Below are positions 29,494-33,149 of a DNA stretch of 64,000 nt, one piece after another. The notes under the pieces were generated by a model. It saw only the letters and a program-made list of their open reading frames with translations. It ran no database searches and was not told the DNA's origin. The stretch's first letter is position 1. Each line of letters starts with the position of its first letter. The stretch comes from Aquabacterium sp. OR-4 (GTDB lineage Bacteria; Pseudomonadota; Gammaproteobacteria; Burkholderiales; Burkholderiaceae_C). The stretch is taken from positions 1,984,001 through 2,048,000 of the forward strand of contig NZ_JAOCQD020000001.1 of assembly GCF_025290835.2 (NCBI RefSeq), given 5' to 3'. Both the position numbers and the translations under genes were made by a program.

Positions 29494-31401
29494 TCAAACC
29501 TTGGCGGCGATGTCGGCGGCGAGCTTCGCAGCGAAGTCGGCCACCGACATGACGCCGAGGTCTTGGTTGCCCCGGGCGCGCACAGCAACGGCCCCACTTG
29601 CCTTCTCCTTGTCACCTGCGACGAGGATGTACGGGGCCTTTTGCAACGAATGCTCGCGGATTTTATACGTGATCTTCTCGTTGCGCAAATCGGCCTGAAC
29701 TCTAACTCCTTGTTTTTGCAGCGTTTTCACGACGTCTGCAACGTATTCGGCTTGCGCGTCGGTGATGCTGGCCACCACCACCTGCACTGGAGCCAGCCAG
29801 GCAGGCAATGCGCCAGCATGCTGCTCGATCAGAATACCGATGAAACGCTCGAGGCTGCCCACGATGGCGCGGTGCAGCATGATGGGTCGATGGCGGGCTC
29901 CATCCTCGCCCACGAACTCTGCGTCCAGCCGTTCGGGCAGGTTCGGATCGACCTGGATCGTGCCGCATTGCCAGGGGCGGCCCAGCGCATCTTTCAACGT
30001 GTATTCAATCTTCGGGCCGTAGAAGGCACCCTCGCCCGGCAGGTACTCGAAGTCGCAGCCCGAAGCCTTGAGGCCCTCGGCCAGCGCGGCCTCGGCGCGG
30101 TCCCAGCTTTCCTCGGTGCCGATGCGCTTGTCGGGCCGGGTGGACAGCTTGTAGATGATGTCGCTGAAGCCGAAGTCCTTGTACACGCGCTGCAACAGCG
30201 TGGTGAAGGCCACCACCTCGGCCTGGATCTGGTCTTCGGTGCAGAAGATGTGGCCGTCGTCCTGGGTGAAGGCGCGCACGCGCATGATGCCGTGCAGGCC
30301 ACCGGTGGGCTCGTTGCGGTGGCACTGGCCAAACTCGCCAAAGCGCAGCGGCAGGTCGCGGTAGCTCTTGATGCCCTGCTTGTAGATCAGGATGTGGCCC
30401 GGGCAGTTCATCGGCTTGAGCGCGTAGTCGCGCTTCTCGCTCTCGGTGACGAACATGTTCTCGCGGTACTTGTCCCAGTGGCCGGTCTTCTCCCACAAGC
30501 CCTGGTCGAGGATCTGCGGGCCCTTGACCTCCAGGTAGCCGTTGTCGCGGTAGACCTGGCGCATGTACTGCTCGACGCCCTGCCACACCGTCCAGCCCTT
30601 GGGGTGCCAGAACACCGTGCCGGGGCTGTGCTCGTCGATGTGGAACAGGTCGAGCTCGCGGCCGAGACGGCGGTGGTCGCGCTTCTCGGCCTCTTCCAGC
30701 ATCGTGAGGTACTTCTGCAGGTCGTCCTTGGTGGCCCAGGCGGTGCCGTAGACGCGCTGCAGCATCTCGTTGCGATGGTCGCCGCGCCAGTAGGCGCCGG
30801 CCACCTTCATCAGCTTGAAGTGCTTGAGCTTGCCGGTGCTGGGCACGTGCGGGCCGCGGCAGAGGTCTTCAAAGCTGCCCTCGCGGTACAGGCTCACGTC
30901 CTCGCCGGCCGGGATGCTGCCGATGATCTCGGCCTTGTAGTGCTCGTTGAGCGACTTGAAATACGCCACGGCCTCGTCGCGCGGCAGCACGCGGCGCTGC
31001 ACCGGCTCGTCCTTCTTGGCCAGGTCGGCCATCTTCTTCTCGATGGCGGCCAGGTCGTCGGGCGTGAACGGGCGCTTGTACGAGAAGTCGTAGTAGAAGC
31101 CGTGCTCGATGACCGGGCCGATGGTGACCTGGGCTTCGGGGAACAGCTCCTTGACCGCATAGGCCAGCAGGTGGGCGGTGGAGTGGCGGATCAGCTCCAG
31201 GCCGTCGGCGTCGCGCTCGGTGACGATGGCCAGCGCGGCGTCGGCGTCGATGCGGTGGCTGGTGTCGACCAGCCGGCCGTCGATCTTGCCGCCGAGCGCC
31301 GCCTTGGCCAGCCCGGCGCCGATGGACGCGGCCACCTCGGCCACGGTGACCGGCTGCGGGTACTCGCGTTTCGAACCGTCGGGAAGCGTGATCGTGACCA
31401 T
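29494..31401 (-). CDS. thrS: Threonine-tRNA ligase
   Basis: A 635-residue class II synthetase charging tRNA-Thr. In order: N-terminal TGS domain (about 1-62, [20 protein letters not shown]), editing domain (about 70-230, with the [16 protein letters not shown] zinc-like histidines), catalytic core (about 245-530, [10 protein letters not shown] holding the zinc Cys, and [14 protein letters not shown]), and the anticodon-binding domain (about 535-635, [14 protein letters not shown]). Its 5' region holds a Thr-rich leader peptide and an attenuator. It lies just upstream of infC, the usual order. Confidence 0.97.
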
Positions 31402-31443
31402 GGCAAAAGGCTCCGGAAATGGGCAGGCGTGCGGGCAACAAAA

Positions 31444-31466
31444 AAGCGCGGTGGTGAGCCGCGCTT
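31444..31466 (-). terminator. Attenuator terminator in the thrS leader
   Basis: On the minus strand an 8-bp stem (AAGCGCGG / CCGCGCTT) with a 7-nt loop is followed by TTTTGTT, 43 bases before the thrS ATG. Its 5' arm and loop (31456-31464) can instead pair with 31507-31517 (9 bp with a 2-nt bulge), which overlaps the stop codon of the leader peptide. Confidence 0.75.
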
Positions 31467-31515
31467 GTCGTTGTTCAGGGAGAAAGGGTCGAACAGGCGT
31501 GACGGCGCGGCCGGC

Positions 31516-31557
31516 TCAGGGGCCGGTGACGGTGGCGATTTGAGTTCGCGGTGTCAC
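31516..31557 (-). CDS. Threonine-rich leader peptide (13 aa)
   Basis: A 13-codon frame with a GTG start reading VTPRTQIATVTGP (initiator valine shown as encoded). Four codons are Thr, including ACA and ACT, which are uncommon in this GC-rich sequence. A plausible ribosome site (aaagg) lies nine bases upstream. The stop codon overlaps the upstream segment of an antiterminator that competes with the terminator at 31444-31466. A ribosome stalled at Thr codons leaves that segment free; one at the stop covers it. This is the layout of a Thr-tRNA-responsive attenuator of thrS. I know of no prior description of this particular peptide. Confidence 0.6.
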   Translation of the reverse strand: MTPRTQIATVTGP

Positions 31558-31751
31558 AACCAGGTGCCTTTCTCGCTCTTGTTCAGGGTGTTTCGGGGGT
31601 GGTTCGGATGAACTGCGCGCGATTGTACGGCGCAACGCCGTGGCGGCGGCCATGCGGCAGGCGCCGAACTGCGGCCGCCGATCGGGCCATTTCGCCGCGC
31701 CGCGCCGCGCCGGCACGCAGCCGGCGCCGGCTGCGCCGGGCGCATGCCGCC
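31558..31751 (-). promoter_or_regulatory. Presumed thrS promoter region
   Basis: The 194 bases between the hupE-like stop and the Thr leader must hold the thrS promoter. The minus strand reads GTACAAT near 31622-31628, a fair -10, about 65 bases before the leader start; no clear -35 is seen. The rest is low-complexity GC with no coding sign. Confidence 0.35.
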
Positions 31752-33149
31752 TCACACCAGGGCCGCTGCGCCCAGGCAGCGCTCGACGAACCAGAACGCG
31801 GCCACCGCGGCCGCCACGCCCGAGCCGCCACGCAGCACGGCGGGCACGTACATCGCGCGCACGCGCCAGGTCATCAGCAAGGGCAGCAGCAGTGCCACCA
31901 CGGCCAGCTGGCCGGCCTCGAGCCCCAGGTTGAACTGCAGCAGCGCCCAGCCGAAGGTGGCGCCGGGCAGGTCGAGCTCGGCCAGCACGCCGGCAAATCC
32001 GAAGCCATGCACCAGGCCGAAGCCGAAGGTCAGCGCATCGCGCCAGCGCCACAGGCGCGGGCGCAGGTTGTCCACCGCCGCCACCAGGATGGTGAGTGCG
32101 ATGGCCGGCTCGATCAGCCAGGGCAGCGGCTGCCAGCGCCCCAGCGCCGACAAGGCCAGCGTGATCGAGTGGGCCAGCGTGAACAGCGTGATGGTGCGCA
32201 GCACCGGCCCCACGGCACCGCGCAGATCGGCCACCGGACGCCAGCCGTGGCTGGCGCTGCTGGCGGCCGCGCTGGCAGCAGCTGAACGATCTGCACCGCC
32301 GGCACCACCAGAACGATCTGCACCGCCACGCTGCAGCACTGCGGGCAGCAACAAGCACACCAGAAACAGCAGGTGATCCCAGCCGTTGAGCAGGTGCACC
32401 GCGCCTTCGACGATGAAGGACGCATGCTCGGCGGCCGGCGGCTGCGTCGGCACGGCGGCGCTGGCCGGGCCGGCGACGACGGTGGCGGGCACGACGGGGT
32501 TGACCAAGGATGCCGATGCCGATGCCACGCCCGACACCAACGAGGAGCCAGTGGCGCCAACGGCCGCCTGGCTGGCGCGCGTGGCCGGATCGGATGGACC
32601 GGCCGCATCCGCCGCCTGGCCCGGGCCGGTTGACAGCGCTTCGCCCGGGCGCGGTGCCGGGCTGGGCACCAGCACGCGCAGGTGCGGCGCGCCGGCCTCG
32701 GCCAGGTTCAGGCGCAGCAGCGCGCGGTGGGTGTCGTCGATGCCGGCCAGCAGGTGCCAGCGCGCCGGGGTGCCGGCCGCCACCCGGCAGGCGGCATCGG
32801 CGCGCACGACGGCATACACGCCATCGGCCCGGCGCTCCAGCGCCTGCTCGCCGGCCAGCGGTTGAAAGCGGCAGTCACCGAGCTGCAGCGCGCCCAGCAC
32901 GGTGGCGGCGATCAGCGGCTGGGCGCGGCGCACCTCGGCCCAGGTGAGCTGGCGGTCGCCGTCGGCGTCCAGCGTGGGCAGCAGCAGGTCCAGATCGCGC
33001 AGCGCCACATCGGCGCGCAGGCTGCTGCGCTCGGCGCCGGCCTGCACCTGCAGATAGGCGTCGCTGGCCTGGTGGGCCGGCGCGGCCAGCGGGCACAGCA
33101 GGCCGAGCAGGCCCAGCCAGCGCCAGAACATGGCGACAGCGTGTGTCAC
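31752..33149 (-). CDS. HupE/UreJ-family membrane protein with EF-hand-like motif
   Basis: A protein of about 460 residues. An N-terminal signal peptide (MFWRWLGLLGLLCPLAAPAH) is followed by a periplasmic domain with a near-perfect EF-hand loop DADGDRQLTWAE (about residues 61-72). A Pro/Ala/Ser linker (about 170-250) leads to the HupE/UreJ_2 membrane domain (about 255-465) with the family HLLNGWDHLLFL motif, LAHSITLALSALG and VHGFGFAGVLAEL. The family is associated with nickel or cobalt handling in hydrogenase and urease clusters, but neither enzyme is nearby. GTG at 33149 overlaps the TPR gene stop (GTGA); an ATG at 33131 is the other candidate start. It is the last gene of the DUF4331-lipoprotein-TPR-HupE unit. 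Confidence 0.82.
   Translation of the reverse strand: MTHAVAMFWRWLGLLGLLCPLAAPAHQASDAYLQVQAGAERSSLRADVALRDLDLLLPTLDADGDRQLTWAEVRRAQPLIAATVLGALQLGDCRFQPLAGEQALERRADGVYAVVRADAACRVAAGTPARWHLLAGIDDTHRALLRLNLAEAGAPHLRVLVPSPAPRPGEALSTGPGQAADAAGPSDPATRASQAAVGATGSSLVSGVASASASLVNPVVPATVVAGPASAAVPTQPPAAEHASFIVEGAVHLLNGWDHLLFLVCLLLPAVLQRGGADRSGGAGGADRSAAASAAASSASHGWRPVADLRGAVGPVLRTITLFTLAHSITLALSALGRWQPLPWLIEPAIALTILVAAVDNLRPRLWRWRDALTFGFGLVHGFGFAGVLAELDLPGATFGWALLQFNLGLEAGQLAVVALLLPLLMTWRVRAMYVPAVLRGGSGVAAAVAAFWFVERCLGAAALV

Follow-up and report, generated by a model that had tools for sequence, protein, structure and literature searches.

A putative threonine leader with competing hairpins ahead of thrS in Aquabacterium sp. 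OR-4 and related bacteria

The DNA analysed here, which will be referred to as the window, is a 64,000-nucleotide stretch of Aquabacterium sp. OR-4 (contig NZ_JAOCQD020000001.1, positions 1,984,001-2,048,000; GCF_025290835.2). Downstream of thrS, which encodes threonyl-tRNA synthetase (ThrRS), it carries frames that look like infC, rpmI, rplT, pheS and pheT, the names being our own assignment; together with thrS, this cluster probably encodes IF3 and two ribosomal proteins, and its genes may share a transcript. No tRNA gene was found ahead of thrS in the window. A GC-rich inverted repeat (GCAGCCGGCGCCGGCTGC, 31717-31734) lies between thrS and the next upstream gene, and a direct repeat (GAACGATCTGCACCGCC) occurs in two copies (32284-32300 and 32311-32327) inside a minus-strand frame (33149-31752) upstream of thrS. 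The features ahead of thrS are collected in Table 1.

Table 1. Coordinates of thrS and of the candidate regulatory features preceding it in the window.
Feature	Position	Strand	Remarks
thrS, threonyl-tRNA synthetase	29494..31401	-	presumed regulated gene
-10-like box TACAAT	31622..31627	-	candidate leader-transcript promoter
Purine block GAGAAAGG	31567..31574	-	conserved; contains leader ribosome-binding sequence
Leader reading frame MTPRTQIATVTGP	31516..31557	-	13 codons + TGA; GTG start 31557-31555, TGA stop 31518-31516; Thr codons ACA, ACT, ACC, ACC
Segment 1	31541..31557	-	GTGAC 31557-31553, CGCG 31550-31547, CTCA 31544-31541; within leader codons 1-6
Segment 2	31499..31518	-	TGAG 31518-31515, CGCG 31509-31506, GTCAC 31503-31499 (segment 1 partners)
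Segment 2 stretch GGCCGCGC	31512-31505	-	pairs with segment 3
Segment 3	31457..31466	-	terminator 5' arm 31466-31459
Segment 3 stretch GCGCGGCT	31464-31457	-	partner of segment 2
Segment 4	31440..31451	-	terminator 3' arm 31451-31444 and T run 31445-31440

A preliminary description of this DNA had proposed a GTG-initiated frame of 13 codons, four of them Thr codons including ACA and ACT, and both its coordinates and its codons proved right. The leader reads V/M-T-P-R-T-Q-I-A-T-V-T-G-P, with Thr encoded by ACA at codon 2, ACT at codon 5 and ACC at codons 9 and 11, and an AAAGG (31571-31567, minus strand) stops 9 nt 5' of the GTG. The terminator and T run placed just ahead of thrS were recovered by a terminator scan, which covered 601 bases on both strands and returned four terminator-like sites where shuffles led one to expect 0.6. 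The stem of this hairpin (31466-31444, minus strand) ends 42 nt before the thrS ATG.

Segments 1 to 4 can form the helices 1:2, 2:3 and 3:4, which are mutually exclusive; the stretches used by 1:2 and 2:3 share 10 nt in the window. In 1:2, the GTGAC, CGCG and CTCA of segment 1 pair with GTCAC, CGCG and TGAG, respectively. A helix competing with the terminator had been proposed between 31507-31517 and 31456-31464. The competing helix itself was found, but in a different and better register, with 8 bp between 31512-31505 and 31464-31457 (GGCCGCGC:GCGCGGCU), a duplex energy of -17.4 kcal/mol and z -2.9 versus a shuffled partner. Folded alone, the whole leader showed only a modest excess of stability over shuffled sequences (z -1.9), 7 of 200 of which matched it, and its minimum-energy fold in the window includes the terminator.

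Upstream regions of thrS were sampled from 30 loci of relatives and 80 titled records, many of them metagenome-assembled. A copy of the window (L001) and two regions missing the thrS start (L023, L088) were dropped and the window was added, giving 108 regions. The pattern NTGACA(C/G)C(G/A)C was used to select a core, which is present in 64 of them (consensus GGTTATGACACCGCGAACT), and in all 64 the core-bearing frame ends after 11-23 codons. The core occurs, for example, in Acidovorax (L034), Massilia (L096), Rhodoferax (L038), Roseateles (L045) and Leptothrix (L071), the last with the most Thr of all leaders (MTPRTTTTTTSTSTEV). Bases beyond the selection pattern are near-invariant, namely G at -4 (63/64) and G at -3 and T at -2 (64/64 each), and the GAACT after the pattern is kept in 57-64 of the 64 regions. 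The preliminary description had named a lack of conservation of the peptide and both helices as grounds for refutation; the peptide start proved strongly conserved, and helices 3:4, 2:3 and 1:2 recur across species. Leaders from other genera are MIQAPRTTTASERQ in Ralstonia (L072), MISRPTRTTTGNFRPMSR in Bordetella (L103) and MFFPPARTTTRNFRPMSR in Achromobacter (L108). Some families carry MTPLT leaders, with CTG for CGA; as judged by eye, the segment 2 partner follows the CTG change in L131 and L016 and does not do so cleanly in L135. In four regions (L004, L005, L008, L013) an in-frame ATG two codons earlier (ATG GTT GTG/CTG ACA) offers an alternative leader start, and it occurs where the usual start is GTG or CTG. 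Two further leaders (L010, L064) have apparently decayed: the surroundings of the core are recognisable and the hairpin is retained, with start or Thr codons altered.

One answer to the invariance of the start-codon block is a triple use of the same bases for initiation, as sensing codon and for pairing. A rival reading is repression by ThrRS through direct contact with the leader RNA, as known from E. coli, with the GGUUAUGACACCGCGAACU block as putative site. The block is indeed conserved at the nucleotide level including wobble positions, beyond the needs of the peptide, although part of it was the selection pattern. Nevertheless, it contains a start codon followed by in-frame Thr codons, and other families retain the Thr codons without the block. 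We consider this rival very improbable. An ACCGCG sequence is similar to the T-box consensus, and a T-box-like element would sense uncharged tRNA-Thr directly. We give practically no credence to such an element, as no Rfam family matched at gathering thresholds and the conserved block holds a start codon and a reading frame. A permissive Rfam search (to E 5) on 321 bases returned only an opposite-strand sRNA family at E 2.7.

The range of the leader was surveyed with a sequence-only covariance model of the core built from 50 sequences. A single match stands out in the genome of the window (E 2e-11, the next at E 0.5), and an order-wide draw under strict filters gave matches at E<=0.01 in 57 of 399 genomes. 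Forty of the 57 matched places, mostly weaker ones, were fetched, and 37 lie directly upstream of thrS in nine families; three of these (L121, L122, L132) missed the search motif and were settled by agreement with listed thrS places. Three core-model matches (L143, L144, L145), all within the bottom five of the 57 by strength, are not upstream of thrS. A class-wide draw yielded 10 matching genomes out of 369, namely that of the window, two members of its family and seven with weak matches (E 9e-4 to 9e-3); outside the order weak matches only were seen. A plasmid search with the leader region gave no match.

Sixty further regions were chosen by hand among the thrS places listed so as to cover many families, with preference for genomes that had no core match. 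Other leaders appear there, such as MFRTRTTTQSC, MSFRTTTTGSLNLA, MFKRTTTTRISR, MLFRTRTRTF and the like. These non-core families differ in their leaders, which have an Arg-Thr pair in common and are often Thr-rich; in some of the added regions a hairpin was found without a leader, or neither. Many leaders hold two Thr codons only. By our tally of family labels, leaders of some kind occur in 19 of the 51 families drawn.

Leaders of all kinds were collected by a rule demanding a terminator and a short frame that holds an Arg-Thr anchor. The rule fires in 133 of 180 thrS upstream regions that carry a terminator, compared to 136 of 3600 shuffles; 25 of the 205 regions at hand had no terminator and were left out of this count, and 37 of the 205 had been collected using the core model. 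If more than one frame qualified, that with the highest Thr count was kept, which introduces a slight bias. Two duplicates were removed and L136, in which the wrong frame had been picked, was excluded, leaving 130 distinct leaders for the tests and the folding model below. At the six codons after the anchor, in-frame Thr was counted in 73/130, 58/130, 23/130, 29/130, 22/127 and 17/118 leaders. Out of frame, the counts are 0-4 of 130 at the next two codons, 0-6 of 130 at the first four and at most 8 of 118 over all six. As a second line of evidence, the short frames of 80 terminator-bearing regions classed as core-less, two of which (L115, L147) carry MTPRT leaders, were compared with shuffles. 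Thr was the most enriched of the 20 residues (t 6.8), followed by Phe (5.2), Gln (3.8) and Arg (3.2); 25 of 105 regions without terminator were left out of this test, and L143, L144 and L145 were excluded. At the level of sequence, Thr is selected in the reading frame of the leader. Its codons are also unusual: before the anchor 96 of 100 Thr codons are ACA, and the anchor Thr is ACT in 116 of 130 leaders, part of this bias arising because the collecting pattern and model favoured it. For comparison, none of the 28 Thr codons in thrS of the window is ACA or ACT, and in pheT of the window these two account for 4 of 38.

The pairing between segments was compared with swap tests, in which partners are exchanged between species and relatedness is ignored. 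A terminator-like hairpin lies between leader and thrS in 63 of the 64 core regions; L042, which lacks one, was dropped, leaving 63 core sequences. For 2:3 the mean z was -1.67 and none of 5000 swaps reached the native value; for 1:2 the mean z was -1.05 with a swap p of 0.09, segment 1 barely varying. Corrected for composition and extended to the 130 leaders, native 2:3 was reached by 0 of 10,000 permutations and native 1:2 by 1 of 10,000. Alignments comprised 50 of the 63 core sequences (L015 among those left out) and 21 of 62 for the set of close relatives. In the 21 closest sequences 2:3 is kept in 94.6%, 3:4 in 96.4% and the middle of 1:2 in 98.8% of cells; the other two stretches of 1:2, as defined in the window, do not hold generally, with 69% and 52% of cells. 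Compensatory changes, the check proposed beforehand, are few among these 21 and not above shuffles, because the helices vary too little there. Segment 2 begins a median of 2 nt after the leader stop (quartiles -3 and 6), a descriptive figure by which a terminating ribosome would cover segment 2. Pairing of the purine block with a downstream stretch (31574-31567 : 31487-31480) was considered as a fourth helix; it is weak on average (mean z -0.77, 8 of 62 below -2, swap p 0.047) and is retained as a possibility only.

Terminator-like hairpins also precede thrS in the regions without a leader by the rule, 47 of the 180, although at least five regions missed by the rule do carry one (L046, L049, L085, L155, L205). 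The hairpin is therefore kept without need of a leader, and the terminator may be older than the leader, having perhaps once closed a tRNA-Val transcript. A tRNA-Val(GAC) gene was found just upstream of thrS in 13 of 15 scanned loci, which had been picked for a visible or suspected tRNA. It adjoins the thrS leader in L016, L018, L026, L096, L101, L116, L126, L149, L163, L184 and others, and the two are perhaps on one transcript. In five regions (L032, L035, L059, L075, L076) a promoter-like TAAAAT lies 16-28 nt before a strong terminator-like hairpin followed by thrS, and no leader frame was seen by eye between TAAAAT and hairpin.

The hairpin might be a plain terminator of an upstream transcript, often that of tRNA-Val, with thrS expressed by read-through and the short frame incidental. 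This would suit the frequent tRNA-Val neighbour and three regions (L024, L029, L093) that show only tRNA, hairpin and thrS. However, thrS of the window has no preceding tRNA, and both the frame-specific Thr enrichment and the better within-sequence fit of 2:3 would be left unexplained. We consider a plain upstream terminator unlikely; it may well describe an ancestral or leaderless state. The position of promoter-like motifs was also examined, since a transcription start between leader and thrS had been named beforehand as an observation refuting attenuation. A TANAAT box occurs there in 3 of 128 leaders and in the 85 nt upstream of the leader in 59 of 128, these being motif counts and not mapped starts. 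Within the 300 nt that precede thrS in the window, the TACAAT ahead of the leader is the sole TANAAT-type box; a consensus promoter scan of this region found no full promoter match near the leader.

Taken together, we assign a probability of about 0.86 to the reading that the element is a ribosome-mediated transcription attenuator of thrS, for which we infer that the leader is translated, that transcription terminates in vivo and that the element responds to charged tRNA-Thr. RNA polymerase would start slightly downstream of the TACAAT box and then transcribe the leader frame. When Thr-tRNA is scarce, the ribosome would stall early in the frame, at the Thr codon ACA (codon 2) or ACT (codon 5), and mask segment 1, so that segment 2 could pair with segment 3, no terminator would form and thrS would be transcribed. 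When Thr-tRNA is ample, the ribosome would reach the stop codon, located at one edge of segment 2, and mask this segment, leaving 3:4 to form the terminator.

This scheme was examined in a folding model in which bases covered by the ribosome are blocked and the RNA is folded up to the terminator loop, folding kinetics being ignored. Mean modelled sequestration of segment 3 was 0.66 with codon 2 in the A site, 0.45 at the stop codon and 0.50 without a ribosome, and it flattened to 0.57, 0.53 and 0.55, respectively, when the stretch after the stop was shuffled. A stall at the anchor exceeded the stop codon by more than 0.2 in 53 of 130 leaders, with the opposite in 3. On average, the expected switch is thus predicted by the masked-ribosome model. 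For the window the modelled values were 0.75 (codon 2), 0.38 (stop codon) and 0.70 (ribosome-free); its RNA would already favour 2:3 without a ribosome, which counts against the simple picture. Individual leaders differ as well: in L071 and L017 the model predicts a switch by a stall at codons 2-3 or at codon 2 only and none along the Thr run, and in L184 and L160 almost no switch.

A more specific version, which we put forward tentatively and regard as rather doubtful, would be an order-wide thrS attenuator that senses mainly via the rare, conserved ACA after the start, later Thr codons being lineage-specific amplifiers. The first elongation step would then be the one that detects starvation. 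A ribosome held at ACA codon 2 would have roughly the footprint of the conserved block (about -16 to +16) and would keep both segment 1 and the purine block from pairing with segment 2. The switch would, in many families, be placed between the tRNA-Val gene and thrS, probably on one transcript.

If the attenuator reading is true, a translated leader joins the T-box and synthetase binding as a means of thrS control, and a large part of the order couples threonyl-tRNA supply to the thrS-containing cluster. The natural leader variants represent a broad set for testing which codons are sensed by a starved ribosome.

Gram-positive thrS genes use T-boxes, and E. coli ThrRS represses its own mRNA. 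Both resemble the present element in being feedback control of thrS and differ in that the synthetase binds, or the tRNA binds directly, rather than a leader being translated. Translated-leader attenuation is known for synthetase genes such as E. coli pheST. The pheM-pheST attenuator likewise has a leader that is translated and enriched in the cognate residue, together with alternative hairpins, an intrinsic terminator and a synthetase target, but with a different gene, residue and sequence, the thrS leader described here being betaproteobacterial. In thrL of the E. coli thr operon, Thr codons of a translated leader also sense Thr-tRNA; this leader is longer and Thr/Ile-rich and controls biosynthesis genes, and no Rfam family matched the region ahead of thrS in the window at gathering thresholds. 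The preliminary description was not aware of an account of this element. None for Betaproteobacteria was found in the open-access literature; a weaker thrS leader has been proposed in Streptomyces (PMC8079986). There, thrL of Streptomyces lividans is a short Thr frame (MKRVRPFLETTPGFVPAR) upstream of thrS and a proposed attenuator; it holds two Thr, is leaderless, and termination is unclear according to its authors (PMC8079986). Compared by eye, its peptide shows no evident similarity to the present leaders beyond Thr. As judged from sequence comparison, the mechanism would be classical translated-leader attenuation, placed here before a betaproteobacterial thrS.
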